Source: Acidobacteriota bacterium
GTDB taxonomy: Bacteria > Acidobacteriota > Holophagae > Thermotomaculales > Thermotomaculaceae
DNA length: 36,011 nucleotides
Direction: 5' to 3'
NCBI GenBank assembly: GCA_013151025.1
Contig: JAADJC010000024.1
Location: 1 to 36,011 of the forward strand
The position numbers and the translations under genes were made by a program. The notes under the pieces were generated by a model. It saw only the letters and a program-made list of their open reading frames with translations. It ran no database searches and had not been told where the DNA came from. Shown one piece after another: positions 8,562 through 27,432 of this stretch. The number at the start of each line of letters is the position of its first letter. Positions within the stretch are counted from its first letter, which is position 1.

Positions 8562-8624
8562 TAGGCTCGCTGACCAGCCGTATCTGATAGAATAGACAAA
8601 ACACCGCATGTTGGAGGTTTTTTA

Positions 8625-9185
8625 ATGGAGATTGGACTGATTATTCTGACAGCAGTGCTTGTTTTCTGGTTTGTCATGACATTCAACCGTTTTATCCGAT
8701 TGAAAAACATGATTAAACAGGCATGGAGCGATATTGATGTGCAGTTGAAACGGCGCCATGACCTGATCCCCAAGCTGGTTGATACTGTCAAAGGTTATAC
8801 CGGCCACGAGAAAAAGACCCTGGAGCAGGTAGTGGCAGCCCGAAGTGCCTGCATGAAAATTCCAGACGGAAAAGCGAGAGAAAATGCCGAAGCGACATTG
8901 GGTACCGGGCTGCGCCAACTGTTTGCTCTGGCTGAAAGCTATCCTGATTTGAAGGCCAACCACAGTTTTCTCATGCTTCAGCAACAGATTTCAGAGGTTG
9001 AAGACAACATCCAGATGGCCCGACGCTTCTACAACGGAGCGGTGAAGCTCTACAATGTACATCTGGAATCCTTCCCTTCCATGATTGTCGGGAAGATGTT
9101 CCATTACCAACCCTCTGAGTTTTTTGAGCTGGAAGCGGGAGAGGGTCAATCACCGGATATTTCCTTTCAGGAGGACACACAATGA
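8625..9185 (+). CDS. lemA: LemA family protein
   Basis: A 186-residue LemA protein: one N-terminal membrane helix (residues 3-20) followed by a long helical bundle exposed on one side of the membrane. Family landmarks are the segment from AWSDIDVQLKRRHDLIPKL into VDTVKGYTGHE, SYPDLKANHSF and ARRFYNGAVKLYN. A GGAGG ribosome site lies at 8613-8617. A TAGAAT at 8589-8594 could be a -10, but no good -35 is seen. Its TGA stop overlaps the ATG of the DUF2207 gene (ATGA). This pairing is widespread, and LemA is thought to work with the DUF2207 membrane protein, although the biochemical function is unknown. Confidence 0.95.
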   Translation: MEIGLIILTAVLVFWFVMTFNRFIRLKNMIKQAWSDIDVQLKRRHDLIPKLVDTVKGYTGHEKKTLEQVVAARSACMKIPDGKARENAEATLGTGLRQLFALAESYPDLKANHSFLMLQQQISEVEDNIQMARRFYNGAVKLYNVHLESFPSMIVGKMFHYQPSEFFELEAGEGQSPDISFQEDTQ

Positions 9186-11083: not shown

Positions 11084-11128
11084 CCCTGAATCTGCACAAA
11101 AACGTGAAACTTTTAATGAATAATCCGG

Positions 11129-11134
11129 TATAAT
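11129..11134 (+). promoter_or_regulatory. Consensus -10 element for the DUF5916 gene
   Basis: A perfect TATAAT lies 30 bases before the TTG start of the next gene. The -35 region (GAAACT around 11106-11111) is weak, so activation by a factor or an alternative sigma context is possible. Confidence 0.45.
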
Positions 11135-11164
11135 TTCTTAACTGTTGAGTCTCGGGGGGTCTGT

Positions 11165-13330
11165 TTGAATCTGAAAAAGCGTTGTTTTGTCCTGCTGATG
11201 CTGATTTTCGTATGGGTTGGACCTGTTGCTGCTGAAAACCGGATTGCCGCTGCACACACAGACAGCACGATTCACCTGGATGGAAAACTGGATGAACCGG
11301 CCTGGCAGCATGCCGGGATTATCGCGGATCTGACGCAACAATCGCCACACCCCGGAGAGCCTACGCCTTTTCACACAAAGGTTTTCGTACTGACTACCAA
11401 TCATGCCCTTTTCATCGGGATCCAGTGCACAGACCCGGATCCAACGAAAATGTCCGCCCATACCATGCAACGGGACAGTGAAATGGACGGTGACGACAAG
11501 GTGGCAATACTACTGGACACATTTGGGGACAACCGTACCGGATTCATATTCCAGGTAAACCCCGCAGGGGCCCGTACCGATGGGCTGATTTCCGGGGCCG
11601 AAAGCATGTCACTGGACTGGGACGGCATCTGGAACGCCCGGACAAGGCGGACGAAAACCGGTTGGACAGTGGAAATCGAAATCCCAGCCCATACCCTTCG
11701 GTTTACTCCGGGACAGGATATCTGGAAGATGGATGTCCAACGATGGGTAGCCCGAAAACAGTTGAGCCTGCGCTGGGCCGGAACCACATTGGACTGTCAT
11801 CGCTTTGACATGCGCCATACAGGTATTTTGTCTAATATGAAGGACATGAACCAGGGGCATGGCCTTTCCGTCAGCCCTTATGCCGTTATTCAGACCGACC
11901 GAAACTTTCAGGATAATCGCGACTCATTAAGTGGCACGGCAGGTCTGGATATTCGATACAGTATTACGCCGGGGATCAGTGGCATGCTGACACTGAACAC
12001 TGATTTCGCAGAAACAGAGGTGGACACAAGACAGGTCAATCTGACTCGCTTCAGTCTCTTTTTTCCGGAAAAACGGTCCTTTTTTCTGGAGGGGTCCAAC
12101 CTCTTTGATTTCGGTACCGGACTCCATCGGGATTTTGTACCTTTTTATTCCCGCCGTATCGGACTGTACGACGGAAAACCAGTTCCCATTGATTACGGTG
12201 TCAAGGTGATGGGGCAACAGGGGCCATGGTCCATGGCGATGCTTGACGTGCAGACAAGGGATTCAGACAGCACGCCCGGAACCAATTTGTTTGCCGGGCG
12301 GGTGGTTTATGATCTGACCTCCCATCTTCGTGCCGGTGCAATTATGACCAGCGGGAATCCGGACGGCGTATCTGACAACACTATGACAGGAGTGGATGCG
12401 GTATGGACCACCTCCACCTTCCATGGTGACAAAAACTTCAGCGCAGGCGGCTGGTTTGCCGGTACATCCGGTGACCTTGAGGCAGGACGGAAAAGCGGGT
12501 GGGGATTCAAAGTAGATTACCCCAATGATCTTTGGGACATGAGTATCACTTACAAAGAATTTGGGAAAGCCATGGACCCTAGCCTGGGCTTCCTGCCCCG
12601 GCCCGGAACAAGGCAGCTATCGCTGGGGATGGCATACCAACCCCGGCCAAAAGGTAAGCTTGGGAAATGGATTCGCCAGATGTATTTTGAATCCTTTGCC
12701 TGGTACGTGGAAAGCCTGGAGGGTGTGACCGAATCCTGGCGACTCTTCACCGCGCCCTTCAATGTCAACACTCAATCCGGCGCCCATTTTGAATTCAACA
12801 TTGCCCCCCAATATGAATTTCTGTATGAGCCTTTTGAAATTTCGGAAGGTGTATTTATCCCCGCCGGGGGCTACCACTTCCTGCGCTACAGGGTGGAGCT
12901 GGAATCATCGGATTCAAATCCCTTTGTAATCGGAACATCTACATGGTTTGGGGAATTCTATACCGGCCACCTTACTCAGATGGAAGCCTACGTCCGCTGG
13001 TCCGGTAATGGCGGTCATCTTCACATGGAACTGGAAACGGAACACGATTTTGGGCACCTGCCTCAGGGGAATTTTGTTGAACGGCTCTGGCAATTCAAGG
13101 CAATTTACGCCTTTACACCGGATCTGATACTCTCCAGCTATACCCAATACGACAACGACTCACGGGATATCGGCCTCAATAACCGGCTCAGATGGACCAT
13201 CGCTCCGGGACGGGACATTTACCTTGTCTGGAATTACGGCTGGGAACGGCCTGTGGACCGACCCATGACCCACAGTATCCCTCTTGCCAACCAGATTGCT
13301 CTGAAATTCCGCTGGACCTGGCGGCGCTGA
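11165..13330 (+). CDS. DUF5916 protein with N-terminal CBM9-like domain (probable outer-membrane barrel)
   Basis: A 721-residue protein. The start is TTG at 11165, chosen because it follows a GGGGGGT ribosome site and gives a complete signal peptide (MNLKKRCFVLLMLIFVWVG to PVAA). Residues about 28-215 form a beta-sandwich of the CBM9-like type (STIHLDGKLDEPAWQHA, DGDDKVAILLDTFGDNRTGFIFQVNPAGARTDG). The remainder matches DUF5916: LDIRYSITPGISGMLTLNTDF, ETEVDTRQVNLTRFSLFFPE, KRSFFLEGSNLFDFG, YSRRIGL. These are followed by alternating aromatic strands typical of a barrel, up to the end. Members are common in Acidobacteria, Gemmatimonadetes and Bacteroidetes; the substrate is unknown, and sugar or peptide uptake or binding is only inferred. 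It has its own -10 and no operon partner. Confidence 0.88.
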   Translation: MNLKKRCFVLLMLIFVWVGPVAAENRIAAAHTDSTIHLDGKLDEPAWQHAGIIADLTQQSPHPGEPTPFHTKVFVLTTNHALFIGIQCTDPDPTKMSAHTMQRDSEMDGDDKVAILLDTFGDNRTGFIFQVNPAGARTDGLISGAESMSLDWDGIWNARTRRTKTGWTVEIEIPAHTLRFTPGQDIWKMDVQRWVARKQLSLRWAGTTLDCHRFDMRHTGILSNMKDMNQGHGLSVSPYAVIQTDRNFQDNRDSLSGTAGLDIRYSITPGISGMLTLNTDFAETEVDTRQVNLTRFSLFFPEKRSFFLEGSNLFDFGTGLHRDFVPFYSRRIGLYDGKPVPIDYGVKVMGQQGPWSMAMLDVQTRDSDSTPGTNLFAGRVVYDLTSHLRAGAIMTSGNPDGVSDNTMTGVDAVWTTSTFHGDKNFSAGGWFAGTSGDLEAGRKSGWGFKVDYPNDLWDMSITYKEFGKAMDPSLGFLPRPGTRQLSLGMAYQPRPKGKLGKWIRQMYFESFAWYVESLEGVTESWRLFTAPFNVNTQSGAHFEFNIAPQYEFLYEPFEISEGVFIPAGGYHFLRYRVELESSDSNPFVIGTSTWFGEFYTGHLTQMEAYVRWSGNGGHLHMELETEHDFGHLPQGNFVERLWQFKAIYAFTPDLILSSYTQYDNDSRDIGLNNRLRWTIAPGRDIYLVWNYGWERPVDRPMTHSIPLANQIALKFRWTWRR

Positions 13331-13527
13331 AACGACCAGTTGGAGAGGGGTAGGGGTAGAGAACAGAAAACGGGCTATCTTCTTTTCTTTTCACATCTGA
13401 CGCCTCATTTCACAATCCTCGTGGACGCAGAGAAACTGAAAGAAGACAAGAAAAAATATTGACTTTATCAACAAAAAGAGGAAGTGACCGTGACCCGTTC
13501 TTTTCTTATTCCTACCATTTGTCCTGT

Positions 13528-14283
13528 TTACTGGACAGACTTGAAGGATTGTTTCCGTGCCCAGCCATTCATCCCATCCGGAAGGGTAATGTGAACAAAA
13601 CCGGATTGTTCCCCTTCTATTTCAACCAATGTACCGGAATGAATGCGAAACAGCAGAGAAGATGAGGTGGCGGGCTCACTGAATATTTCAACTTCGGGTT
13701 GAAACACGACGGCTTCCCGCCGGGTAAGCTCTCCGGCACGGGAATTTACAAGACCGAACGTCATCAGCAGAAACACAAGGGAAATTCCAAGTCCATAGTA
13801 GAGGGGCTTTCGGGAAAACCGCCCGGAAACCAGCAGACCCACGAATAGAAACACAAGAACCCAGAAAATCAACAATAATCCGGTCAGCACCGTATATGGA
13901 ACAGATTGATACAGATGGCGGTACGCTTTTTCCACCGCACCCACCGGAGGGGTTTTGACTCTGTCTGAAAGACGACTTTTCAGGACAGTCAGGTTCCGAT
14001 TCACCGAGGGGTTCAGAGGCTGAATTCGTCGGGCTTGTTCAAAATAGAGCCTTGCGGAAGCCAGGTCTCCTTTTCGAAAACTTGCACATCCCAGGTTGTA
14101 CAACAGATCAAAGCTCTTTTCCCCCCGGGCAGCCAGTTCGGAAACAGCTTCCCGATATAATTCAATTGCTTTGTCATAGTCTTTACCGGCATATGCTTCT
14201 CCCGCTCTCCGGTACAATGTGCCGATGTCTGTCGCCGACACAAAAGTCGTCAGACACAAAAGAAGGACAAGCCATTTTCTCAT
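13528..14283 (-). CDS. batE: BatE-like protein (TPR, two membrane helices, SH3-like domain)
   Basis: A 251-residue last gene of the Bat operon. It has a signal peptide (1-17), TPR repeats at about 20-95 (YAGKDYDKAIELYREAV, LLYNLGCASFRKGDLASARL, ARRIQPLNPSVNRNL), two membrane helices (about 130-152 and 160-180), and a C-terminal SH3b-like domain (190-250; EIFSEPATSSSLLFRIHSGT and ending MNGWARKQSFKSV). This order is the standard BatE plan. It presumably holds partners on the periplasmic side. The start overlaps the batD stop by four bases (ATGA). The 197-base convergent gap to the DUF5916 gene shows no convincing terminator on either strand. Confidence 0.85.
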   Translation of the reverse strand: MRKWLVLLLCLTTFVSATDIGTLYRRAGEAYAGKDYDKAIELYREAVSELAARGEKSFDLLYNLGCASFRKGDLASARLYFEQARRIQPLNPSVNRNLTVLKSRLSDRVKTPPVGAVEKAYRHLYQSVPYTVLTGLLLIFWVLVFLFVGLLVSGRFSRKPLYYGLGISLVFLLMTFGLVNSRAGELTRREAVVFQPEVEIFSEPATSSSLLFRIHSGTLVEIEGEQSGFVHITLPDGMNGWARKQSFKSVQ

Positions 14284-16064
14284 AATACCTTCTCCAGTTT
14301 CAAAATTGCCGTTTGCGCGTCATTCATGATGTCCCGGTTCAACGCGTTACTGCTGGGTGTGTAGCTTTCAAAATCACAGTATTCCACTACATCCACTATG
14401 GCTTTGATCATTTCCGTCTCCACATTCCGTGATTCCATCTCTCTAGCGATTTCATCAATTTTCAAATCCAGCATCGGTCGGTTCCATTTATCCGAAAAAT
14501 AGAAAATACAGGCTTTTGAGACCTGTTGATAGTATTCCCGCCCTTTGCCTTTTTTCAAGAATTTTGCCGCAATCCGAATCCGGTTCCGAAACAGGGCGGC
14601 GGCATGGGTTCGCCGGTAGGTGACGGGGTCTCTGCGGGAAGGATCTCGCCACCGGAGAAAAAATCCGAGAAAAATCAAAAAGAACGGTATTGAAACAATT
14701 GAAATGCGATACCAGGAAGTCTCTGAAATATCTACAAATCTGCCGGGGACATTTCCCGTACGAATGTATTCAATGTCATTACCCACCGCGACGACTTCAC
14801 TGCCACCTGCTCCAGGTAGTACAGAAACTGAGCTTACGGTTCCTTTTTCTACAAAAATCTCTATGGGTTCGGTTTCCCTGGTAATGTATTCTTTCGATGT
14901 CGCATTGAAAAACGTCATTTTGGTTCCGGGAATCACGAGGGTACCGACTTTCTGTGGAACCAGGACAATTTTCCAGGTCTTTTCTCCCCGCAGTGGATTT
15001 TTCGGATCCCGCTTCAGTTCAGGGGAAGACGGACGAAACATCCGAAATCCATCAATGCGACTCGGAAACATCAACGGGATCGTATTAAAGTCCCCTTCTC
15101 CGGACACGGTAACCATTCCGGTAATGCTGTCTCCCATCTTCACGTGATTCTGATTAAACGAAACCGACAATTGAAATCGTCCTACAGCACCTGAAAATCC
15201 GGGGGCTTCCGGGGTGGGCAGGGGGTACACAGCCAATGTGGCAGGTCGGCTCTTTCGCTGTACCGGCTCACCGGGGAAAAAGGAATATGGATCTCCTACC
15301 TGAATACCGAATACCGGCTGGGGTAGAGGTAACCGTCCCGTTTTTGTTGGAAACACAATTTTTCTGAAAATCACCGCAGTATTGTAAGAAACACCGTTGA
15401 CTGTCCTGGTTTTCCGATTCAGCACATGATTCTGGCCCACATCCTCCGTCAAGAAACCGGTAAAGTCCGGCATTTCCCGAACCCCAAGCCTCGCCACCGA
15501 AACCCGACTGTAAATTCGGTAACTTACCACAACAGCTTCCCCCACATATGCCACCGGTTTGCTCAATTCGCATGTCACGAAGAGAGAATCTGCTGTAACC
15601 GGGCGCCGGGCAGGTGCTGGTGGATTGAACATCTTATCATTAAACATGTCAAAAGGAGAGCTGCGGCGCTGCCTCTGTCGACTGGAAAGTATGCTGCCCT
15701 TCTTCACGGTAAGGGTTATTGGTTTTGTCTTGTACTCCTTGTCTCCAACTTTAACGAGAAAAGGTGGAATAATAAATGTACCAACAGTTTTGGGGGATAA
15801 TGTAAACGTTTTGCTACTGGAAACAGAGGTTTTCCAGTTAATTATCTGGGTGGAATGGCTGGTAGACGAACCTGCCACAATATCGAAATCGGGAATGGAT
15901 GTGATCGTGGGAAATTGTACGTCCCCATCTACACCATCTACATTTATGGTAAGTTGAAAAGTGTCTTCAACTCCCACCGGGTTTGCAGACACAGTGGCTG
16001 TAACCTCCGTTGCACGGAGGGGAAATACAAGTATCAATAATATTGGCAAAAGAAACTTCGCCAT
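14280..16064 (-). CDS. batD: BatD family protein
   Basis: A 594-residue protein with a signal peptide (residues 1-18), a long beta-rich periplasmic region made of several Ig-like domains (about 20-445; TFQLTINVDG, FDIVAGSSTSHSTQIIN, LSPKTVGTFIIPPFLVKVG, SKPVAYVGEAVVVSYRIYSR, LVPQKVGTLVIPGTKMTFF), one membrane helix at about 450-472, and a cytoplasmic helical tail (KGKGREYYQQVSKACIFYFS, DKWNRPMLDLKIDEIARE). The start has a GGAGGGAGT ribosome site. BatD is a core part of the Bacteroides aerotolerance-type locus; it is thought to form a complex with the VWA proteins, but its exact action is unknown. The C-terminal helical tail resembles that of the 330-residue protein earlier in the same operon. 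Confidence 0.9.
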   Translation of the reverse strand: MAKFLLPILLILVFPLRATEVTATVSANPVGVEDTFQLTINVDGVDGDVQFPTITSIPDFDIVAGSSTSHSTQIINWKTSVSSSKTFTLSPKTVGTFIIPPFLVKVGDKEYKTKPITLTVKKGSILSSRQRQRRSSPFDMFNDKMFNPPAPARRPVTADSLFVTCELSKPVAYVGEAVVVSYRIYSRVSVARLGVREMPDFTGFLTEDVGQNHVLNRKTRTVNGVSYNTAVIFRKIVFPTKTGRLPLPQPVFGIQVGDPYSFFPGEPVQRKSRPATLAVYPLPTPEAPGFSGAVGRFQLSVSFNQNHVKMGDSITGMVTVSGEGDFNTIPLMFPSRIDGFRMFRPSSPELKRDPKNPLRGEKTWKIVLVPQKVGTLVIPGTKMTFFNATSKEYITRETEPIEIFVEKGTVSSVSVLPGAGGSEVVAVGNDIEYIRTGNVPGRFVDISETSWYRISIVSIPFFLIFLGFFLRWRDPSRRDPVTYRRTHAAALFRNRIRIAAKFLKKGKGREYYQQVSKACIFYFSDKWNRPMLDLKIDEIAREMESRNVETEMIKAIVDVVEYCDFESYTPSSNALNRDIMNDAQTAILKLEKVL

Positions 16065-16099
16065 CCCGACTCCCTCCAGTCCTGCTTCAATGTCTCAGT

Positions 16100-16855
16100 T
16101 TACCAGTCTTTTACATTCCGTTCAACCGGCCGCACCGCTTTCTGCTTTGCATTTCTCTTTCTATCCTGTTTTTCCTGTTCCCGCAACCCCTTCAGTATCC
16201 GTTTTGCCCGCTCTTTCCTTTGTTGCTGAACAGACTGCGGCGGTTTCTGACTTTGTTTTTTCTGTTGATCCGGTTTATTCTGTTTTTGATCCTGTTGTTT
16301 CTTATCGTCTTTCTTCTTGTCCTTCTTGTCGTCCTGTTGTTTTTGCTGCTGCTTTTGCTCCTGAATTTTTTTCAGGCTCATCTCGTAGTTTTCTTTGGCC
16401 CACCGGTCTCCAGGATCTGCCAGCAACGTTTTCCGATAAAAACCAGCCGCTTCTTTGTATTTTTTTGCATTGTAGAGGGCATTCCCGGTGTTGTAAAAAA
16501 GTCTCGGCTGTAAGTCGTCAGGAGCTTTGCTCAGTAAGTCCTTGTAGGTTTTAATCGCATCCTTTACCCGGCCCGATTTCACAAAGGCATTTCCCATATT
16601 GTACTTCACTTGTGGTGAATCATCCCGAAGGGAAAGCGCCTGAATGTATTCCTGAAGCGCGGCCTGATATTCCCCGGCATCAAAAAGCTGATTGGCCTTG
16701 TGGTTGTGTACATACCCCGGATCAGCGAGGTGAATCTGGGCAAACAACGGTTCTGCAGAAAAGGCGGAAACGCCAAGAAGCAGCACCACAAAACGGAAAA
16801 GCATTCCTTTTCTCGCTTTCAATTGGGATTGTGGATTCATGATCCTACTTTTCAT
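16100..16855 (-). CDS. batC: BatC-like TPR protein with Lys/Gln/Asp-rich tail
   Basis: A 251-residue protein. The open frame runs 192 bases further upstream into batB, but the ATG at 16855 follows AAAGGGGGAAA and gives a leader (about 1-40, hydrophobic core LFRFVVLLLGVSAFSA ahead of PLFAQ). Three TPR units follow (HNHKANQLFDAGEYQAALQE, VKYNMGNAFVKSGRVKDAIK, LFYNTGNALYNAKKYKEAAG). Then comes a low-complexity K/Q/D stretch (EQKQQQKQQDDKKDKKKDDK and onward) and a conserved-looking end, ERNVKDW. This plan matches BatC. It begins 19 bases after the batB stop. An internal ATG at 16840 is a possible alternative start. Confidence 0.85.
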   Translation of the reverse strand: MKSRIMNPQSQLKARKGMLFRFVVLLLGVSAFSAEPLFAQIHLADPGYVHNHKANQLFDAGEYQAALQEYIQALSLRDDSPQVKYNMGNAFVKSGRVKDAIKTYKDLLSKAPDDLQPRLFYNTGNALYNAKKYKEAAGFYRKTLLADPGDRWAKENYEMSLKKIQEQKQQQKQQDDKKDKKKDDKKQQDQKQNKPDQQKKQSQKPPQSVQQQRKERAKRILKGLREQEKQDRKRNAKQKAVRPVERNVKDW

Positions 16856-16874
16856 TCCATTTCCCCCTTTCTGA

Positions 16875-17843
16875 TCAGAGAAGCGCAAATGCCGCCAATG
16901 CCAGAACAGATCCTGACAACGGCAATTGATAGCGGTCCCGTAACCGTATGATTCCCTTTTCTTCCAGCTTGCGACGGGACAGTTTTTCCAGCTTTGCAGC
17001 CAGCCCGGTCGCCGTCCGGGTATCTGACGCGTGGAAAAACCCACCACCGGTATCGTTGGCGATTTCCCCCAGGGCCTTCACATTGAGCTTGGAGATTACA
17101 GTTTCTCCGGTTTCGTCCTGCTTATAGCCACCCACTGTTCCATCCGGATTGATTTCCGGTACCGGGGCACCTGCGGCAGAGCCCACACCAACGGTAAAAA
17201 CAATTACACCGTTTTCTTTCAGCTTCCGAACCGCGCTGTCCACATTTCCACCGAAATCTTCTCCATCGGAAAAGACCACCACAGTTCGGTATCCGCCTGA
17301 GTTCTCCTGGAAAGAAGTGGCCGCCATATCCAGCGCCCGTCCCAAGTCGGTGCCCGCCGCTGAGGTCATGTCGGTATCAATTCCATCAATGAACATTGCC
17401 ACTGCTTCATAATCGGTGGTCAAGGGACATTGGATAAAAGCGTCACCGGCAAAAACGATGATACCAACCCGGTCATTTTTCAACTGCAACAACAGATCGT
17501 AAATCATCTGTTTTGTCACTGCCAGACGGGAGGGTTTCAGATCCCGGGCGTTCATGGATCTGGATACATCCACTACGAGAAAGATGTCCCGGCCCTTTCG
17601 CTTTCCATGCTCCAAAGCCACTCCGTAGCGGGGAGAAGCAAGAGAAACAATCAACAGGGAAAGTGCCAGGAGAAAGAAAAACCATTTAAAAAAGCGACGA
17701 TCCCGAGCAAGTCTTAATCGCACCCGGAAAAGCCCGCTTTCCTGAAAAAAACCCTCCACCGAACGGTGGCGAATAATTAACACAAGCAGCAGAACCGGAA
17801 TTAAAACCAACCCATATAGCAGTTCAGGATATTGAAAATTCAT
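16875..17843 (-). CDS. batB: BatB, membrane VWA-domain protein
   Basis: A 322-residue protein with two N-terminal membrane helices (about 7-25 and 53-70) and a VWA domain from about 84. The metal-ion site is intact: DVSRS (Asp92, Ser94, Ser96), TDYEA/AAGTDLGRAL and FSDGED (Asp193). The domain is expected to bind Mg and mediate protein contacts in the periplasm. The C-terminus is short: it stops within a hydrophobic run (SGSVLALAAFALL), where relatives usually have a full third membrane helix, so the last helix may be marginal or slightly truncated. The ATG overlaps the batA stop (ATGA), and batC follows after 19 bases. DLKPSRL after the metal site is shared with BatA. Confidence 0.93.
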   Translation of the reverse strand: MNFQYPELLYGLVLIPVLLLVLIIRHRSVEGFFQESGLFRVRLRLARDRRFFKWFFFLLALSLLIVSLASPRYGVALEHGKRKGRDIFLVVDVSRSMNARDLKPSRLAVTKQMIYDLLLQLKNDRVGIIVFAGDAFIQCPLTTDYEAVAMFIDGIDTDMTSAAGTDLGRALDMAATSFQENSGGYRTVVVFSDGEDFGGNVDSAVRKLKENGVIVFTVGVGSAAGAPVPEINPDGTVGGYKQDETGETVISKLNVKALGEIANDTGGGFFHASDTRTATGLAAKLEKLSRRKLEEKGIIRLRDRYQLPLSGSVLALAAFALL

Positions 17844-18826
17844 TGCTTTACCCTCAATACAATTTCACGGACGAAGAAAAATCCCAGCAGCAATGCCAGC
17901 GCTCCCCAGAGAATGTAGCTGTAAATATCCCGCCAGAGGGCAAACTTTTTGACCTCAATTTTTGTCTTCTCCATTTTGTCAATGATGCTGTAAATGGCTT
18001 TCAGTTTTTCAGCGTTTGTGGCACGGAAATATGCACCGCCAGTGTTACCGGTAATCTCCTTTAACATGTTCTCGTCAATTTGAACCGGTACCTGAACGGT
18101 GCGGACCGTCCCGAAAGGACCGGGCTGTGGCATTTCGGCGTAGCCGGTGGTCCCTACCCCCACGGCATAAATCCGAACACCCATCACCTTTGCCAGTTCC
18201 GCCGCTGAACGGGGGTCAATGTTGCCCCGGTTGTTCATGCCGTCGGTTGCCAGAATAATGACCTTGGATTTCGCCTTGGACTTACGGAGTCGGTTGACTG
18301 CGGTGGCAATGGCCATCCCGATGGCGGTACCATCCTCTATACTGCCCAGTTTTGTTTGCGCAATCAGTTGTTTCAGCATTCGATGATCGGTGGTCAGTGG
18401 ACAGCGGGTAATGGCATAGGCGGAAAAGGGAATGTACGCCATTCGATCGTATGGCCTGCCATCTACAAAATTAAGCAGTGTTTCCCGTGCCACCTGAAAA
18501 CGACTGGGTTTCAAATCCATGGCTTTCATGGATGATGAAATGTCCAGACAGAGAACAATGTCAATACCCTTTACGTTCTGTTTTTCATAGAGTTTGCCCA
18601 ATTGAGGTCGGGCAAGTGCCAGAATCATCAAAATGAGCGCAGCCAGTGGAAACCAGTAAACAATTCGATACAGCCATTCCCTGGGAGAAGTTGGCGCAAA
18701 GTCCATCAGGAAACCCGAAAAACGGATACCTTCCCGCAGCGCCCGGTTTCGTTTTACAAGAAACCAGCCCAGAAGAACCGCAGGGATCAACAGAAGCAGT
18801 ACAGCCCATGACTCAAAGCGAAACAT
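17840..18826 (-). CDS. batA: BatA, membrane VWA-domain protein
   Basis: A 328-residue protein and close relative of the downstream BatB. Two N-terminal membrane helices (about 7-24 and 55-73), a VWA domain (about 87-290) with intact metal site DISSS (Asp95, Ser97, Ser99) and ATDGMNN, and a C-terminal helix (about 300-322) that ends normally with basic residues. Shared words with BatB (DLKPSR, CPLTTD, GTAIGMAIATA versus GTDLGRALDMA) show an old duplication. The start lies 14 bases inside the preceding gene and has a GGGGAG ribosome site. It presumably forms a complex with BatB and responds to the MoxR ATPase. Confidence 0.93.
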   Translation of the reverse strand: MFRFESWAVLLLLIPAVLLGWFLVKRNRALREGIRFSGFLMDFAPTSPREWLYRIVYWFPLAALILMILALARPQLGKLYEKQNVKGIDIVLCLDISSSMKAMDLKPSRFQVARETLLNFVDGRPYDRMAYIPFSAYAITRCPLTTDHRMLKQLIAQTKLGSIEDGTAIGMAIATAVNRLRKSKAKSKVIILATDGMNNRGNIDPRSAAELAKVMGVRIYAVGVGTTGYAEMPQPGPFGTVRTVQVPVQIDENMLKEITGNTGGAYFRATNAEKLKAIYSIIDKMEKTKIEVKKFALWRDIYSYILWGALALLLGFFFVREIVLRVKQ

Positions 18827-19805
18827 CTGTTTTCTCCCCGCCTTCTGATTCCGCCTTTGAGTGCCGTTTACAAATTGCGTCTGCCAGTTTGTACACCAGA
18901 TTCAAGTGGCTGTTGGTTTCTCCCTGGGACGGAAGCAGCTTCGCAAATTTAACCATATCGCAGGCCTCCAGAAACTCCCGAACCAGACGATCTTCCCCGG
19001 ACGTAGTGTGTCCGGCCAGATTATCCAGCATCTCTTCACTGGTTTCAATCGCATAATCAAATTCAAAAACACGGCCCAGAAAACGTTTCCCGATTTCAGC
19101 CAGCTCCACGTAAAATTCCTTGATTCGCCCATCCTTAAGATAGCGACTGGCCAGTAATTTCCCAAGCAATTCTCTAACCTCAATACATGGGGGTATTGAG
19201 GGTTTCTTTTTTTGTTCCTTTTCTTTCGAGGCTTGATCCCGGTTCCGAATACGCTTTACCAGCTTTAGTATGACAAAAACCAACAGGGCCAGCGCCAGCA
19301 ATGCGCCCAGAATTTCCAACCCTGTTCGAATCAGGTGGGAATAATCCGGTTTAATTTCAAGTTGGGGTTTTAACGGGTTGATTGTTTTCTTTTCCTTCCC
19401 GCCCTGAAACATGGATACTACTTCAACGGAAGGAACGTCTTTTTTCACGGTTTCGCCATCGGCAACCGCCTGAATTTTACCGAGAGACATCGATCCCATC
19501 TTGAATGGGCGCACCGTCAGTGTATAGCGGTAGAGATGGTATCCGTCCGGGAGTTTTTCATCCGTTGTTTTCCCTTCTCCCCATACCGGTAGAGAATCTG
19601 CCTCATCTTCATTTTCAACCGCTTCCGGTTTGACAAAATGAAAGGTTACAGACACGCCTTCCTGAACCATGGCCCGTGCGGAAATAGTCACCGGGTCTCC
19701 CACATGGCAGGTGGGTTTGTCTGTGGATACAGTCAAATTCAGGGACGAAGTAAAGGCCGTTACCCCGGCAAAAATGAGTAAACAGACTAAAATTCGCCGT
19801 TTCAT
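18813..19805 (-). CDS. BatD-like single-span membrane protein of the Bat operon
   Basis: A 330-residue protein I cannot assign to a named Bat subunit. Visible parts are a signal peptide (about 1-20), a beta-sandwich ectodomain (25-135; STDKPTCHVGDPVTISARA, GYHLYRYTLTVRPFKMGSMS), one membrane helix (160-183), a basic linker, and a cytoplasmic helical domain (about 200-320; VRELLGKLLASRYLKDGRIK, EFYVELAEIGKRFLGRVF, EEMLDNLAG). That plan is the same as BatD at about half length, so it looks like a BatD paralogue, or a DUF4381-type protein as found beside DUF58/VWA genes. It overlaps DUF58 (ATGA) and batA (14 bases), placing it firmly in the operon. Confidence 0.7.
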   Translation of the reverse strand: MKRRILVCLLIFAGVTAFTSSLNLTVSTDKPTCHVGDPVTISARAMVQEGVSVTFHFVKPEAVENEDEADSLPVWGEGKTTDEKLPDGYHLYRYTLTVRPFKMGSMSLGKIQAVADGETVKKDVPSVEVVSMFQGGKEKKTINPLKPQLEIKPDYSHLIRTGLEILGALLALALLVFVILKLVKRIRNRDQASKEKEQKKKPSIPPCIEVRELLGKLLASRYLKDGRIKEFYVELAEIGKRFLGRVFEFDYAIETSEEMLDNLAGHTTSGEDRLVREFLEACDMVKFAKLLPSQGETNSHLNLVYKLADAICKRHSKAESEGGEKTDVSL

Positions 19806-20677
19806 CGGACCATCTTCCTTTTCCGCTTTTCAAAGAAACGGCGGAATGAAGGGTACATATCCGTACCGGCCGTCACTGAAATATAGTCCAGGCCCAACCT
19901 GGAAAAAGTCGAGCTTAATTGGTCACGATGCGCCATTATTGCCCGAATATAAGCTTGCCTTATCCGGCGTGACGCAAAATCAACCATTCGAGGCCGTCCG
20001 CCTTCCAGTGGCAGCATGGAAACCATGCCCCGGGGTGGATTCAGTTCAAATCCTCCGTCCACCCACACCGGAATCAGGTCATATTTCATTGCCGCCATTT
20101 TCAACGCGTTTTCAAATCCGGTGGTGTGGAAGTCGGAAATTAGAAATACGACAGCCCGACGTCGCTGAACCGACAAGAGATGTTCCAATGCCACTGAAAT
20201 ATCGGTGGCTCCCGACCCTTTGAGTTCGAGCAAATCCCGCACAACACGCAACACGCTTCTTACCCCTTTTCTCGGGGGAATGTACTCTTCAATCCGGTCC
20301 GAAAAGCCAATCAGGCCGATTCTGTCGTTGTTCTTGATGGCGGAAAAACCAAGGAGACCGGAAATTTCAGCGCATGTTTCCCGTTTCAACCGGTTACCCG
20401 TACCAAAATCCATGGAATCCGACACATCCACAAGAAGCTGGATGGTCAGTTCTCTTTCCTCCACAAAACGTTTGACATAGGGAGTACCCATACGGGCAGT
20501 GACGTTCCAGTCAATAGAGCGAATGTCATCCTCCGCAACATATTCTCTTACTTCCGAAAACTCCAGACCTCTACCCTTGAATGCAGAATGGTATTCTCCA
20601 CCAATTACCTCTTCCACAATCCGGTTGGTGCGTATCTTAATTCTTCGAACTTCTTTCAGCAGCTCTTCCGCCTGCAT
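19802..20677 (-). CDS. DUF58 domain protein (VWA-like)
   Basis: A 291-residue cytoplasmic protein. The DUF58 signature is clear: RGLEFSEVREYVAEDDIRSI then DWNVTARMGTPYVKRFVEER. It is followed by a VWA-type metal site DVSDS (Asp84, Ser86, Ser88) and ISDFHTTGFENAL. DUF58 proteins almost always follow a moxR gene and are believed to be substrates or adaptors of that ATPase. The ribosome site AGGAGG lies 9 bases before the ATG. The last codons overlap the next gene by four bases. The C-terminus is strongly basic (FFEKRKRKMVR), which may favour contact with membrane lipids or acidic partners (inference). Confidence 0.93.
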   Translation of the reverse strand: MQAEELLKEVRRIKIRTNRIVEEVIGGEYHSAFKGRGLEFSEVREYVAEDDIRSIDWNVTARMGTPYVKRFVEERELTIQLLVDVSDSMDFGTGNRLKRETCAEISGLLGFSAIKNNDRIGLIGFSDRIEEYIPPRKGVRSVLRVVRDLLELKGSGATDISVALEHLLSVQRRRAVVFLISDFHTTGFENALKMAAMKYDLIPVWVDGGFELNPPRGMVSMLPLEGGRPRMVDFASRRIRQAYIRAIMAHRDQLSSTFSRLGLDYISVTAGTDMYPSFRRFFEKRKRKMVR

Positions 20678-20728
20678 TCCCGTGTGCCTCCTGATTTCGC
20701 AATATAGGGTTGTCGCTCACGCCAGGGG

Positions 20729-21718
<990 letters not shown>

Positions 21719-21762
21719 AGAAAAAACCCCCTTCCTCAAGTCAACTCTTTTCCATTGCAAGA

Positions 21763-21971: not shown

Positions 21972-21995
21972 AAAAAACCGGCCCAGACCGGCCGG
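21972..21995 (-). terminator. Intrinsic terminator after the DUF3857 pair
   Basis: On the minus strand CCGGCC-GGTCTG-GGCCGG is followed by six T, 28 bases after the stop codon at 22023. It separates the DUF3857 operon from the moxR-bat operon. Confidence 0.85.
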
Positions 21996-22022: not shown

Positions 22023-23906
22023 TTATCGAACCAACAACGGAGCTTTCAGTTCCCGGATGTACCGGCGATAGGCTTTCCGAAATGCCTTGTACTCATCGAG
22101 GGGAATCCTGATCTTTTTCCAAACAGAAACAATGTCCATAGTAAATGTCTTTCCCGTCAGATTGCAATGACGGCTCATGTGGAAATACGGGGTATCCAGC
22201 TCTGTGCCTTCCGGTGCCTTTACAACATTAAGCCCCTCCGATAATTTCATCACAACATGAATTTTTCGGGTGTGACAGTCAGAAAATACCACAGGAAAAC
22301 GTCGTTTTCGGCGAAAATAATTTTTAGAGCCCATATCCACCAGATCAGGAATTATGTAAGTACCGTCTGTTGCTTCAATCCCTGCATTCTGCAATGTCAA
22401 TTTGCAGGTGGTTTTAACAATGCCTTCTCCTTCAATGACATCGAAAGTGCTTAGCACAGCACCGGGAATCATTCTCTGAATCCAGTTGCGATAACCTTCC
22501 TTCTCTTCCTGTTTGGATATGCTGTCCCGGAACCCCAGCTCATCGTAAGCAGGTTGGCCCATCTTGATTTCCGTAAGGTCTGCAATAATGGACTTATCAA
22601 GGTACAAGTGCGCGCTAATAATGTATTGATAGACATTGGATTCGGCAGAAGAACGAGGTAATTGAATAATCTGCCCGCCCTTATCCGTAACCAGCAGGGC
22701 ATTGGTCCCCTCCAGTGGCGCTTGGAGAAAGGGCGGCTGGGTTATCCGATCCGTCATGTCGGCAATAAGGAAAGGTTGTTTATTGATGGTGGTATTTGCC
22801 AGTTTACGGGTTTTTTCGTCCAGTTTTACCGCCAGAATCGCATGATTGAACTGATTCCCGGGGAATTCTGGAAAAACCTTCCCACTGCTACCTACCTGCG
22901 CCATTACGGGAAATGCCTGCACCCCCCGGCTTCTCAGAATACCGGCCGCAAGGAAGGTCATGTCTTTACAATCTCCATAACGGTGCTGCAACACTTCGCT
23001 GCAGAAATGGGGGATGATCCCTCCCTTTCCCAGCTCAATGTCAACATAGTTAATGTGACCCGATACAAAACGGCAGACTGCCGGAATCAATTCCAACGGA
23101 TCTGACTGCGGAAAAAGCTTATCAGTCTCGGTTTTTGCCTCCTGGCTCAGGTCCAGACGACCGGATGCCTGTTTCCAGTATTTCAGGCCAAAAGAAGCCC
23201 AATCCGTAATACCTGCATTGTATGAAATGGCGAGATACGGAATCTTGTCTGCGAAGTGCGGATTCTTGTATTCCGGTTTCAGATAGGGCTGATTCTCCAC
23301 CACATATGTTTTACCTTCTTTCTGAACCACATGGTTCAGATCATTCAAAACCGAAATCCGGGGGGTACCTGAAACCGTGGCTTCCAATCGGTCAATTTCC
23401 CCGTTGTACCCCATGGGCAGAAAAATGTCATCAAAGAAGCTTTCCACTGTCATTGTGTATTGGAACGCAACAATGTCTCCCTTGTCTATGGTTTTAAAAC
23501 TGGCTATGATTTGCCGTTCATCATCCACAAAATTCTCATTCAGGGCCAGCTTGGCAATGTTTTTTTTCTCCAGTTTTTCCAGACAGACCTTTTTACCATT
23601 TAACCGCCAGCCATCAATTCCCGTAACCTTGTCTTTACCGCTGTACTGGATAATCAGTGTGCCGACGCCAAGGGCAGAAGTGCGGAGAATTTTATACACC
23701 ACCCGTTTCCGCAAAATGATCCTTCCGGAACCGTATCCGACACCTGTACTCTTGAACAAAAGGGCTGTGCTGGGTTCCTCGCTTCCTTCCACCGGGGTGT
23801 AAGTCGCGTGTTCCTGCACCCATCGTGGTGCAATAACTGTTTTCCTGTGTCTTGGGAAAGCCGGAAGCGCCAACAGAAGAATGACGCATAAAAGCTTCCG
23901 GTTCAT
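22023..23906 (-). CDS. DUF3857 / transglutaminase-like protein with intact catalytic triad
   Basis: A 627-residue exported protein. It has a signal peptide (about 1-18), an N-terminal DUF3857 beta domain (about 30-250; RKRVVYKILRTSALGVG, VDDERQIIASFKTIDKGDIV, FQYTMTV) and a papain-like transglutaminase core (about 270-385). The triad is visible: Cys313 in RYGDCKDMTFLAAGILRSRG, His355 in NQFNHAILAV and Asp383 in FLIADMTD. A further beta domain fills the C-terminus. Such proteins usually have protease, amidase or crosslinking chemistry on peptides, but no substrate is known here. The ATG overlaps the stop of the upstream paralogue, so both are made together. A terminator follows directly. Confidence 0.88.
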   Translation of the reverse strand: MNRKLLCVILLLALPAFPRHRKTVIAPRWVQEHATYTPVEGSEEPSTALLFKSTGVGYGSGRIILRKRVVYKILRTSALGVGTLIIQYSGKDKVTGIDGWRLNGKKVCLEKLEKKNIAKLALNENFVDDERQIIASFKTIDKGDIVAFQYTMTVESFFDDIFLPMGYNGEIDRLEATVSGTPRISVLNDLNHVVQKEGKTYVVENQPYLKPEYKNPHFADKIPYLAISYNAGITDWASFGLKYWKQASGRLDLSQEAKTETDKLFPQSDPLELIPAVCRFVSGHINYVDIELGKGGIIPHFCSEVLQHRYGDCKDMTFLAAGILRSRGVQAFPVMAQVGSSGKVFPEFPGNQFNHAILAVKLDEKTRKLANTTINKQPFLIADMTDRITQPPFLQAPLEGTNALLVTDKGGQIIQLPRSSAESNVYQYIISAHLYLDKSIIADLTEIKMGQPAYDELGFRDSISKQEEKEGYRNWIQRMIPGAVLSTFDVIEGEGIVKTTCKLTLQNAGIEATDGTYIIPDLVDMGSKNYFRRKRRFPVVFSDCHTRKIHVVMKLSEGLNVVKAPEGTELDTPYFHMSRHCNLTGKTFTMDIVSVWKKIRIPLDEYKAFRKAYRRYIRELKAPLLVR

Positions 23907-25858
23907 TCCGATTCCTTCAGTACAAAGGTGGGATGGGAAACCGAAATTACCCGGTCAAAATAATTTTTAAACATGCGGTCCGAAGTAGCATTGAACATGT
24001 TTCTGTCCATGTTCTCCTTTGTGTTCACTGTGAATGTGTGGTCATCCTGTTTTGAAAATGACATCCTGTAGCCAAAATAGAAGAGCTTAATCGTTTCGTT
24101 TTTTGGCAGAGAAGCAATACTGAAATCATCCGACAGATGATAGACCACCTTCTGATCCACAATACCCGGATATTTGAAAACAATACTTGAGTGCCGCTGC
24201 TCCGCGTTGAAGGGATTTGTCAGATACCGGCTCAATCCCACCGGCTTGAAAAAGATTTGATCCCCGGCCTCTGCCAATTCAAAGGGCACGGTAAATTCCA
24301 TATCCAGAATCAGGGGCTTATGAATGTCCTTCAGGTTTATAACCTTTTGAGACACTACTTTTACCTTGTCTCCATACTGCTTTTTCAGCCGGCCTTCCAG
24401 CACATCCTTCTTTTCTTTGTCGTTAAAGAAATAGAGTGTCTTTCTTAAATCATAGCTATTATACTGATTCATCTGTTTCACCAGATGAAAGCGCAGGTTA
24501 TCCTCTCCAAGGGTGACATCTATATCCACCTTTGTTACGTTGGCGTTCGGTTTATCAGCAGCAATTTTCATTATCCGGGTTCCGTTCTTAGGGTCCAGGA
24601 TCAGCAACGGAACGCCCTTTGCGCCGTATTCAACCGTGTCGGCTGGGAGCAGCCGTTTGGATGGCTCCAGATAGTGGGTTTTCCCTTTGTAGGTTACCCG
24701 AAGCATGCTGCCGCTGAACTGATTCAGGGTGTGAAGGTCTTTCTTAAACAGTCGGTCATTCCAGGGGCAATAGAAAACGTAGGCAATCTGGGCATCGGGA
24801 AGGGCGGTATGAATCAATGCACCCTCAATAAAGTTCAACTGACGGTCCCAGAGGTATGGCAACTTCATCATCTTGGAAACCGTTGAAACATGAGCCAGTT
24901 TCTTCCAATATTTGTCCTCAACCTTGGAAAAGTCATCCTTGGACATGGTGGAAATCGGTGTGTAATGCTCAATGACATAATCATGGATTTTTTCGACCGC
25001 CGTTTCCGGACTCAAACCGGCTAGTTCCGTTTTTACCAATTTTTTTGTAGCGCCACAGGGCTTGAGCATTTTCTTCAATGTATGGTTATAGTATCGGTTT
25101 CCCCGCTCTATCCAGTAATTGTTGAACTTCCAGTTCACATCCATGTAGTAAACCACAATATACTCCCGACGGCTGTTATAAGGCAGGCTGTAGTCTTCCT
25201 TCGGTAGTGCAGGAATGTTTTTCATCGTAAAATGAATATACTGTCCCCTGGCGGATTTCTTTTTATGCTCCACCTCGGGCTGGGCATGGAGGTTCCCTCC
25301 GACGTATCCCCATCTCCAGCCGGGCCATGGAATAAACGTCACTTCTGACCGAAAACAATAAATGGGATGCTGAGAATACCAGGTGTTGATTTCTTGCGCA
25401 CCATTGTAGGTGTGGTAGTAGGCGTATTCCGCGATGGAACCCGATTCAAGGCCGGGCAGGGCAAAACTTATTTCCGTTTCTTTCATGCCCCATTCCCTGG
25501 ATACTTTTTTCTTGTGGATATCCTTCTCGTCCAGCACATGCTTTTTTCCGTCCGGGGTCCACACTGTAGCCTGAATATCTCCGATATTTTCATCTTGCGG
25601 GTCAAAGGAAAGCTTCACGGTACCGTAATCTTCAATCCCCTTCCGGGTGAATATTTTTATTCTCTTAAGAATTTTCGTCTTTGACATTTCCCGGGTGTAG
25701 GTATTGTCCACTTCTCCTGTTTCCAGTAAAATTACCGCGTCCTCGTATCCCTTTACAGGGTCCGGTTTCAGATTCTTCTCAAAATCCGTCGGGGCATTCC
25801 CCGCCAACAACCGGGCCGCCATCGCCAAAAAAAATACTGATACCAGAATTCGTTTCAT
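23903..25858 (-). CDS. DUF3857 protein with a degenerate transglutaminase domain
   Basis: A 651-residue exported protein. The start at 25858 has an AGGGGAGATGG ribosome site and gives the leader MKRILVSVFFLAMAARLLAG; a start 45 bases upstream would place charged residues before it. DUF3857 covers about 40-270 (KRIKIFTRKGIEDYGTVKLS, QATVWTPDGKKHVL, SIAEYAYYHTYNG, then YNSRREYIVVYYMDVNWKF). The transglutaminase-like part (about 310-440) keeps the fold pattern (AVEKIHDYVIEHYTPIS, EGALIHTALPDAQIAYVFY), but the GDCKD cysteine motif is replaced by RQLNFIEG and the His and Asp strands read QFSGSMLRV and HYLEPS. It is therefore probably a pseudoenzyme. Same architecture and length class as the overlapping downstream gene. 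TTGACA lies upstream at about 25961-25966, but no clear -10. Confidence 0.85.
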   Translation of the reverse strand: MKRILVSVFFLAMAARLLAGNAPTDFEKNLKPDPVKGYEDAVILLETGEVDNTYTREMSKTKILKRIKIFTRKGIEDYGTVKLSFDPQDENIGDIQATVWTPDGKKHVLDEKDIHKKKVSREWGMKETEISFALPGLESGSIAEYAYYHTYNGAQEINTWYSQHPIYCFRSEVTFIPWPGWRWGYVGGNLHAQPEVEHKKKSARGQYIHFTMKNIPALPKEDYSLPYNSRREYIVVYYMDVNWKFNNYWIERGNRYYNHTLKKMLKPCGATKKLVKTELAGLSPETAVEKIHDYVIEHYTPISTMSKDDFSKVEDKYWKKLAHVSTVSKMMKLPYLWDRQLNFIEGALIHTALPDAQIAYVFYCPWNDRLFKKDLHTLNQFSGSMLRVTYKGKTHYLEPSKRLLPADTVEYGAKGVPLLILDPKNGTRIMKIAADKPNANVTKVDIDVTLGEDNLRFHLVKQMNQYNSYDLRKTLYFFNDKEKKDVLEGRLKKQYGDKVKVVSQKVINLKDIHKPLILDMEFTVPFELAEAGDQIFFKPVGLSRYLTNPFNAEQRHSSIVFKYPGIVDQKVVYHLSDDFSIASLPKNETIKLFYFGYRMSFSKQDDHTFTVNTKENMDRNMFNATSDRMFKNYFDRVISVSHPTFVLKESE

Positions 25859-26096
25859 TCTTCCATCTCCCCTTAAAGAATTGTCCCTTTCCTTGTACCA
25901 CACCCAACGGGATATTTGAAGAGATTTACAATTGCAAAGTTACTGATAATTCATGCTGTTATGTCAATCGGGAATTGGCGTAAAAAAACCAGGGTGACTG
26001 GATTCCTACAACAAATTCATTTTGTATTCGATAGCTTGACAATTCTGAAATACGTTTAACAAATACACATCTCGGAAATCCAAAATTCTTCCATTC

Positions 26097-26118
26097 AAAA
26101 AAAACACGCCTACAGGCG
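26097..26118 (-). terminator. Weak intrinsic terminator after the amidohydrolase
   Basis: CGCC-TGTA-GGCG spans the stop codon on the minus strand and is followed by TG and eight T. The stem is only 4 bp, so efficiency is doubtful. Confidence 0.4.
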
Positions 26119-26904
26119 GTAGAGATCCGGACGGCAATCATTGAACAAATGGTTCATAGGGTTCAATTGTGGGTTTGAAGCATTGAGGTCGATTTCCCGG
26201 ATCATGACCACTGCTTCGGCTGGTCCTGCCTTTGCGAGAACTTCTCCGTCCGGTGCCATGATCTGACTGCCGCCGGTAAAAGTGAGTGGAGATGCAGGAT
26301 CTCTGTCTTCGGTGCCGAACCGATTGGCCGTGATGATGAAAATACGGTTTTCCAACGCCCGGGCAAACATGGCTTGCTGACACCAGGGCAGCACCAGATT
26401 CGCCGAATGGGCGATAACAGACGCCCCTCCCAATGCCAGTGAACGTGCCGCTTCCGGGAATATCCAGTCAAAACAGATCATGGTGCCCAGTCGGTATCCC
26501 TGCTTCGTATCCACCGGCTCAAAGGGCGTGTTCCCGGGCCTGAAAATATCTTTTTCTTTAAAAAAAAGGTGCGCTTTCCGATATACGGACAAAACGCCGT
26601 CCGGCCCCATTGCCATGGCAGAGTTGAAAACTTCATTACCGTTCTTTTCCGCGAATCCGGCAACAATCACACTGCTCTTTCGTTCAGCCAATTCCTGAAG
26701 TGCCGGGCCCAATGCGCCCTCTGCCGGTTCAGACAGGGACAGTGCCTCGTCTCTGGAAACAAACTGGTAGCCGGTTGTGCAGAGTTCCGGCAACACCATC
26801 AGATCGAACTCTTTGTCGTTTAACATTTCGCGAATGGTGGAAATATTCTGCCCGATATCGCCGAATACCGGCTGAAACTGCAGGAAACCAGCCTTTATTT
26901 TCAT
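26110..26904 (-). CDS. Carbon-nitrogen hydrolase (nitrilase superfamily amidohydrolase)
   Basis: A 264-residue cytoplasmic enzyme of normal length for the superfamily. The Glu-Lys-Cys triad is Glu40 in LPELCTTGY, Lys110 in YRKAHLFFKE and Cys144 in MICFDWIFPEAAR; the late segment ARALENRIFIITANRFG is also typical. It is expected to hydrolyse a small amide, such as an omega-amidase or N-carbamoyl compound; the sequence does not decide which. Its ATG overlaps the stop of the thioredoxin-like gene by four bases, so the two form an operon. Whether they share a pathway is unclear, since one is cytoplasmic and the other apparently exported. Confidence 0.92.
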   Translation of the reverse strand: MKIKAGFLQFQPVFGDIGQNISTIREMLNDKEFDLMVLPELCTTGYQFVSRDEALSLSEPAEGALGPALQELAERKSSVIVAGFAEKNGNEVFNSAMAMGPDGVLSVYRKAHLFFKEKDIFRPGNTPFEPVDTKQGYRLGTMICFDWIFPEAARSLALGGASVIAHSANLVLPWCQQAMFARALENRIFIITANRFGTEDRDPASPLTFTGGSQIMAPDGEVLAKAGPAEAVVMIREIDLNASNPQLNPMNHLFNDCRPDLYRL

Positions 26905-27341
26905 TTCTTCTTTGCTTTCCCCTCAATGGCTTTCAGAATCGCTGCCGTGTCCTTTTCCATCGTGTCTACCGGATGTTCCACAATTCGGCCTGCCTCTCTT
27001 CCGTTCGCAAAAAATAGAAATGTAGGGACGCGTTCAATATGGTAGGCATTTACAATTCCAGTGTCATCCGAAAGGTGATGCCCCACAGCCACCCACTGTA
27101 CGTCGTCAAATTTGAGCTTTTTGTTGATTTTGATGAATTCCGGCACATGCTCCACGCTGTCGGAGCACCAATCTCCGAAAACTACAATCACGGCAACCCC
27201 TTTCCCACTGAGTTTATCCAGTGGGACAGGATCAATCTTCACTTGTTTGTACCGCTGCTGAAATTCCGGTATCGACAATACCTGCCTTGTCGTCACGAAA
27301 CCGCTGAGTCCCAGAAGAGCCAATAAAATCATTGTCCGCAT
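26901..27341 (-). CDS. Thioredoxin-like protein with CxxS motif
   Basis: A 146-residue protein. The start at 27341 has an AAGGGAGA ribosome site and gives a hydrophobic N-terminus (MRTMILLALLGLSGFVTTRQ), a signal peptide or anchor; the frame extends 60 bases further upstream without a better start. The thioredoxin fold is shown by VIVVFGDWCSDS, VQWVAVG and the cis-proline loop ERVPTFLFFANG. The active site is Cys59-Ser-Asp-Ser62, so the resolving cysteine is missing. WCxDS motifs recur in a recognisable thioredoxin-like family, so this is probably a family trait. A single cysteine fits isomerase-like, mixed-disulfide or non-redox roles better than dithiol reduction. Confidence 0.85.
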   Translation of the reverse strand: MRTMILLALLGLSGFVTTRQVLSIPEFQQRYKQVKIDPVPLDKLSGKGVAVIVVFGDWCSDSVEHVPEFIKINKKLKFDDVQWVAVGHHLSDDTGIVNAYHIERVPTFLFFANGREAGRIVEHPVDTMEKDTAAILKAIEGKAKKK

Positions 27342-27371
27342 ATTATCTCCCTTAGCCTGTTCAATGGAAAG

Positions 27372-27400
27372 AGTATAGCATTTCCTATTTTTTCTCTGCA
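27372..27400 (-). promoter_or_regulatory. Probable promoter of the thioredoxin-amidohydrolase operon
   Basis: On the minus strand TGCAGA (27395-27400), a 17-base spacer and TATACT (27372-27377) lie 31 bases before the start at 27341. The -10 is good and the -35 is only partial. Confidence 0.42.
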
Positions 27401-27432
27401 TTTTTCAGTCGATTCTATAAGCCGACGGGTAT

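Follow-up and report, generated by a model that had tools for sequence, protein, structure and literature searches.

A conserved gene pair of exported DUF3857 proteins, one with and one without a transglutaminase-like catalytic triad

In this work, we are describing two adjacent genes found in a 36,011-nucleotide stretch of DNA from an Acidobacteriota bacterium (assembly GCA_013151025.1, contig JAADJC010000024.1, positions 1 to 36,011 of the forward strand), which as a whole is called the window. In the open reading frame (ORF) reading of the window both genes, named A (P0001) and B (P0002), lie on the minus strand, B first and then A. A preliminary description, made from the sequence alone, had noted two similar exported DUF3857 proteins overlapping by four bases, of which the downstream one keeps Cys313, His355 and Asp383 and the upstream one lacks all three residues. 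These observations hold: the stop codon of B and the start codon of A share an ATGA at 23903-23906, both N-termini carry a hydrophobic signal-like segment (read from the sequence, weaker in A), the triad is present in A, and the columns opposite to it are occupied in B by D338, G383 and E398 in a profile alignment, the same columns being obtained in a joint alignment. The central features are as follows.

23903..25858, minus strand: gene B (P0002), 651 amino acids; exported DUF3857 protein with a degenerate transglutaminase-fold domain, the putative pseudoenzyme partner
22023..23906, minus strand: gene A (P0001), 627 amino acids; DUF3857 and transglutaminase-like domain with C313-H355-D383
23903..23906, minus strand: ATGA, the 4 nt common to the stop of B and the start of A, probably coupling their translation; also in the five closest pairs (loci L030-L034)
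22968..22970, minus strand: codon of the catalytic Cys313 of A (YGDCKD), from the sequence
22842..22844, minus strand: codon of His355 of A, from the sequence
22758..22760, minus strand: codon of Asp383 of A, from the sequence
24845..24847, minus strand: codon for Asp338 in B, the residue aligned with the catalytic Cys, from the alignments
24710..24712, minus strand: codon for Gly383 in B, the residue aligned with the catalytic His, from the alignments
24665..24667, minus strand: codon for Glu398 in B, the residue aligned with the catalytic Asp, from the alignments

The three residues of A follow each other in the order Cys, His, Asp within a transglutaminase-like domain, with the motif YGDCKD at the cysteine. 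Searches against Pfam gave a DUF3857 (PF12969) match of 29.9 bits, the gathering score being 24.6, and a Transglut_core (PF01841) match narrowly below the gathering score (22.2 vs 23 bits). The AlphaFold2 model of the single chain is confident, with a predicted local distance difference test score (pLDDT) of 89.6 and a predicted template modelling score (pTM) of 0.86. Its residues 233-417 match transglutaminase 3 (1l9m_B; Z 10.4, root-mean-square deviation (rmsd) 4.3, 160 aligned), and a further match is protein 4.2 (7uzs; Z 8.9, rmsd 4.0, 152 aligned). Both sequence and model place a Cys-His-Asp triad in a transglutaminase fold, the activity of A being a predicted one.

Protein B matches DUF3857 with 55.9 bits, above the same gathering score of 24.6, and gives no Transglut_core match even at E <= 1, so that the near-match to the latter family belongs to A only. 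Among the 66 B proteins aligned in the motif-scan sample described below, all 66 match DUF3857 and 35 match Transglut_core at E <= 1e-3. Neither A nor B has a match in NCBIfam. B also folds confidently as a single chain (pLDDT 91.1, pTM 0.86), and residues 241-434 of the model match the transglutaminase-fold domain of XPC (8ebv_H; Z 10.4, rmsd 3.8, 157 aligned), yet the Cys-His-Asp triad is absent. An alternative intact triad, which would have spoken against the preliminary description, was looked for and ruled out: none of the cysteines 168, 268 and 364 of B is conserved across the 66 B proteins, no Cys or His column in them reaches 60% conservation, and the single conserved Ser column (68%) is an Asn in P0002. 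Judged by its sequence, B is catalytically dead.

Profiles of A and B derived from relatives in the class can be aligned across 585 columns (hhalign, E 2.5e-31, 99.9%), which makes the two proteins full-length paralogues. The closest structural match of both models is 3kd4 (Z 24.6, rmsd 3.9 and 476 aligned with A; Z 21.2, rmsd 5.3 and 472 aligned with B), which is BDI_1141 of Parabacteroides distasonis, entitled "putative protease". In the A-profile alignment 3kd4 reads YGTPLEIA where A has YGDCKDKA and is thus without the Cys; judging from this alignment, the one solved DUF3857 structure that the sequence searches found seems to belong to the Cys-less kind despite its protease title. In the sequence search of the PDB it was found with the query alignments A2 and A3; nothing was found with A1 at 0.01 or with A4 at 0.1 (A3 and A4 exclude ORFs outside 600-760 amino acids, at contig edges or with X). 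In the models, the N-terminal domain is similar to the one found in M1 aminopeptidases and LTA4 hydrolase. A whole-chain likeness of B to Ost1/ribophorin I (8b6l_O; Z 10.7, rmsd 16, 295 aligned) was set aside as too loose for a statement on function. Going by the models, A and B possibly share a multi-domain architecture with Ost1 and M1-type proteins, with the transglutaminase part inserted.

Conservation of the pair was followed in three samples and in two further phyla. For the first sample, named genomes were scanned for the A motif [KRH]xYGDCKD[MLK], and the best 80 of at least 595 stretches were kept as 79 loci. The sample holds 80 GDC-bearing genes, including that of L130, which was scored B-like by profile and is counted as a solo A on account of its GDC, and excluding a 246-amino-acid fragment in L119, which is a piece of a split gene. 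B lies directly upstream of 70 of the 80 genes, in two of these cases cut by a contig edge (L136, L151), and two more genes at contig edges are not assessable (L099, L100). The search pattern fixes the Cys of A in this sample and leaves His and Asp free; the 74 aligned A-type proteins comprise 73 with Cys-His-Asp (CHD) and one CHE. At the catalytic columns of the 66 aligned B proteins there is no Cys and no His, and Asp is kept in 46. The Cys column holds Gly in 35 and Ser in 12 of them, and YGxG is a frequent motif where A has YGDC. In some relatives the B gene is split (L096, L112, L119).

The second sample covers the class: the window's own genome (G000) and 60 relatives were searched and 27 loci fetched. 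All 29 A genes of the GDC type in these loci have a B neighbour, and in the closest relatives (L030-L034) the pairs are full-length with the 4-nt overlap. The triad of A is CHD in 27/27, and B retains Cys in 0/21, His in 5/21 and Asp in 9/21. Unpaired DUF3857-transglutaminase proteins with the motif GVCKD or a length of 1,300-1,400 amino acids (L035-L039, L042) were excluded from this count; among them is a solitary family, GVCKD and not GDCKD, in the window's genome and family (G000:C37, i.e. L039, and L035, L036, L037). Within the window's family the pair is present in five of nine genomes (G000, G001, G003, G004, G006), and in G002, of the same genus and 88% complete, a C-terminal A fragment was all that was found. 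With the class-specific B profile, a B neighbour was also recognised for the A genes of distant class members (L065-L067, L070-L072) that had seemed to be solo. L065 contains three consecutive B-A pairs (3753-16706), and a second pair type, with A first, occurs in the class members L061, L062, L063 and L064.

For the third sample, 149 genomes of the phylum were searched as one set with both the A and the B profile, and the match lists were read by eye. At 1e-10 the B profile matches in 73 and the A profile in 75 of the 149 genomes, with other DUF3857 types mixed in. Every one of the 32 A places of at least 300 bits (30 genomes) has a B-type place within about 1.2 kb, mostly in the order B then A. 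Eight further regions of the phylum supplied seven A proteins, all CHD, and eleven B proteins, none with the Cys. B-B-B-A arrays also occur (e.g. L220).

Genomes of Calditrichota and Bacteroidota were reached via L142 and L130, respectively, and the B profile matches in 26/40 genomes of the former set and 30/80 of the latter. Twenty regions with visible tandems were chosen from them by eye, hence non-randomly, and one fragment (L201_5848), covering no columns, was dropped. All 21 A proteins keep Cys and His, the third residue being Glu in 19 and Asp in two. The 23 B proteins (14 of them from Bacteroidota) have 0 Cys, 10 His and 22 Asp, and in several of those from Bacteroidota Ser takes the position of the Cys while His and Asp are retained (SHD, e.g. 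L206, L208, L210, L211, L213). Altogether a catalytic-column Cys is found in 0 of 121 B proteins (66 + 21 + 23 + 11), among which the same gene is perhaps counted repeatedly, some genomes having been reached by more than one route. Since the Bacteroidota B proteins look least decayed in sequence, this suggests that the nucleophile was the first residue to be lost in B. The proposal of the preliminary description that an active and an inactive protein form a working unit gains from these data, the pair being kept in the class, the phylum, Calditrichota and Bacteroidota; its assertion that the two are made in equal amounts goes beyond the gene overlap, which is all that was seen.

The genes flanking the pair are on its strand in 19 of 62 cases upstream and in 28 of 64 downstream, and there are no conserved neighbours beyond the pair. 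The commonest upstream neighbours are DeoC (14/62) and an OPT transporter (8/62, all in mutually close relatives), the commonest downstream one an M16 peptidase (6/64), and no hint at a pathway was obtained from these 62 upstream and 64 downstream genes. With the flanking genes non-conserved and often on the opposite strand, the pair itself is therefore the unit. Signals around it in the window are the following.

25868..25874, minus strand: Shine-Dalgarno-like AAGGGGA of B, 9 nt before the ATG of B, read from the sequence
23913..23918, minus strand: Shine-Dalgarno-like GAAGGA of A, within the 3' end of B, 6 nt before the ATG of A, read from the sequence
21976..21993, minus strand: terminator-like hairpin with T run, about 30 nt past gene A, fold z -3.4; closes the two-gene unit

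Besides its ATG, B has an alternative in-frame GTG start at 25903. Terminator-like sites across the region show no overall excess (7 vs 6.0 in shuffles). Because of the hairpin behind A and the gap of about 250 nt between the stop of the CN-hydrolase gene upstream and the ATG of B, the two genes are read as a small unit of their own. The CN-hydrolase gene and a thioredoxin-like gene (26110-27401, minus strand) overlap each other by 4 nt. Directly downstream of the pair lie genes for a MoxR ATPase, DUF58, VWA, VWA, TPR, BatD and TPR-SH3 proteins (13528-21760, minus strand), a cluster which we take to be of the Bat type (aerotolerance); it is separated from the pair by about 260 nt with the terminator-like hairpin in between.

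In a tree of 83 proteins, 33 of 33 B rows fall on one side of a branch with a support of 98 in the Shimodaira-Hasegawa-like approximate likelihood ratio test (SH-aLRT). When Bacteroidota and Calditrichota are included, a branch with a support of 100 sets 38 of the 40 B rows apart, and the A side is similarly arranged. The remaining two (L061, L064), of the A-first type, stand with weak support among A and solo types, having been inside B in the first tree; their B proteins may represent a second, independent loss of catalysis. As both trees come from rapid searches and are rooted at the midpoint, they favour one origin of B without proving it. Compared with the G003 orthologues, B has a ratio of nonsynonymous to synonymous substitution rates (dN/dS) of 0.072 and A one of 0.081, values which are approximate as dS exceeds 1.5 and which point to purifying selection as strong on B as on A; the identity is 82% for B and 75% for A. 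Mean pairwise identity in A is 36.6% for the N-terminal, 46.6% for the transglutaminase and 35.1% for the C-terminal part; the corresponding values in B are 38.7, 34.0 and 32.2%. On these sequence identities, constraint in B is shifted from the catalytic to the N-terminal DUF3857 domain.

The pair thus combines full-length paralogy, a partner without catalytic residues and joint retention under selection, the marks of an enzyme and its pseudoenzyme. We consider it, with a probability of about 0.6, an ancient two-subunit exported enzyme made of a catalytic A and a pseudoenzyme B, in which the complex, the activation and the activity of A are predicted. Because bacteria of several phyla kept both genes side by side, it is probable that the dead twin serves the live one in some way. 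A and B would together make up a single exported enzyme, most likely located in the periplasm. Its catalysis would be carried out by A with the Cys-His-Asp site and would probably be hydrolysis of amides or transamidation, with a protein or peptide as the putative substrate. B would be an ancient paralogue that lost the nucleophile and was retained as a non-catalytic subunit; its contact with A would be made by conserved regions away from the dead pocket, the N-terminal DUF3857 domain most likely among them. B could stabilise or activate A or supply it with substrate, similarly to the trypanosome prozyme acting with S-adenosylmethionine (AdoMet) decarboxylase. B being usually translated first and A coupled to it, the partner would be present while A is made. 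Activation or substrate presentation is favoured over restraint by analogy, as known pairs work in this way (PMC5201418, PMC3663545).

Several observations weigh against this enzyme of two subunits. No B was found for eight of the 80 GDC-bearing genes of the first sample, namely two from Acidobacteriota (L077, L135), three from Poribacteria (L116, L122, L139), two from Bacteroidota (L130, L141) and one from Armatimonadota (L150); the genome of L077 has a normal A-B pair elsewhere. Conversely, genome G185 has a B-type gene (L216, 6227-8242) and no A found, with no A-profile match listed for it. Seven genomes belonging to one family of the phylum have A ahead of B, and A comes first in five and B in 105 of the 110 same-strand fetched pairs, which are not all independent; two more pairs are divergently transcribed (L217, L218). 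An exact 4-nt overlap is possible in 26/110 pairs only, and tight coupling is therefore not universal. No A-B fusion was seen among the fetched loci. The distances of A and B correlate with r 0.976 over 56 loci (shuffles at most 0.16), which is expected from shared descent alone and is therefore no evidence of contact between them. Finally, the A family itself is uncharacterised.

The usual order would also suit a different role, in which B is an inhibitor or guard that is made first and blocks the active site of A, a periplasmic protease that could do harm, until a substrate or signal releases B. With the same fold and full-length homology, B could mimic a dimer partner. Inhibition and activation are not separated by the sequence, but the A-first and divergent arrangements and the solo A genes that manage without a guard make this role unlikely. 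Slightly less probable still is that B is a stand-alone binding protein for a peptide or glycan, sharing only operon and pathway with A. Non-catalytic transglutaminase-fold domains do act as binding or scaffold modules, as in XPC/Rad4 (PMC10318531), which the transglutaminase region of B resembles, and the B of G185 stands without A; however, the near-complete adjacency across the phylum and the retention of the same duplication with A in three phyla suggest a tighter link. That B is catalytic by another route, through a migrated nucleophile or Ser in place of Cys, is very improbable: the SHD proteins of Bacteroidota and the 12 of 66 rows with Ser at the Cys column would fit it, but this column is most often Gly in the same alignment and Asp in the B of the window, and neither the Cys and His columns nor the Ser column, which reads Asn in P0002, offers a substitute. 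The loss of all three catalytic residues and the split B genes of some relatives notwithstanding, a decaying pseudogene or recent functionless duplicate is rejected, being refuted in practice by the dN/dS of 0.07, and also contradicted by the fold predicted with a pLDDT of 91, the retention of B in three phyla as one clade and the higher identity of B than of A to the G003 orthologue.

To return to the two-subunit enzyme, its wider version is a tentative one. The pair may be a very old transglutaminase-fold enzyme of the periplasm whose pseudoenzyme subunit is obligate. It would have arisen by one duplication before the split of Acidobacteriota, Calditrichota and Bacteroidota, or have spread between them as a unit, and 3kd4 would be its dead subunit, crystallised and named a protease. 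Roughly half of the 149 phylum genomes hold matches to DUF3857 proteins of the A and B kinds or to their relatives (75 with the A profile, 73 with the B profile). Should the catalytic and pseudo-catalytic pairing be true, the enzyme expressed alone may show no activity, and the sole DUF3857 structure would represent the inactive half. With its many natural pairs, repeated B-A arrays and occasional solo A genes, the family offers a system for studying the way in which an enzyme copy that has lost catalysis is turned into a subunit.

In the literature searched, which covered few subscription journals, there was no description of a conserved bicistronic pair of a DUF3857 enzyme and its dead twin, nor of the function of DUF3857 proteins, the same being true for PF12969, DUF3858 and transglutaminase-like with pseudoenzyme. 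Among the inactive transglutaminase-fold proteins, we know of none whose gene sits next to that of its active paralogue in a conserved two-gene arrangement. DUF3857 is mentioned once, in passing (PMC6341742), and one paper is relevant to 3KD4 (PMC4866520). The exported DUF3857/transglutaminase-like proteins (PF12969, PF01841; 3kd4) are like A and B, which match DUF3857, but unlike A 3kd4 has no Cys, and a literature look-up found no activity reported for it. XPC/Rad4, erythrocyte protein 4.2 (EPB42) and FBXO21 are inactive transglutaminase-fold proteins (PMC10318531) and resemble B in having the fold without catalysis, XPC being among the structural matches of B and protein 4.2 among those of A. 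Both kinds of component are already known, the enzyme with a dead paralogue as well as the dead transglutaminase fold. The trypanosome pairs of AdoMet decarboxylase (AdoMetDC) with prozyme and of deoxyhypusine synthase are cytosolic. In them a dead paralogue activates the enzyme via a hetero-oligomer, as stated in PMC5201418, PMC6221367 and PMC3663545. They differ from A and B in their unrelated folds and eukaryotic origin, complex and activation being predicted for the bacterial pair, and they are like it in that an enzyme is kept together with its catalytically dead paralogue.

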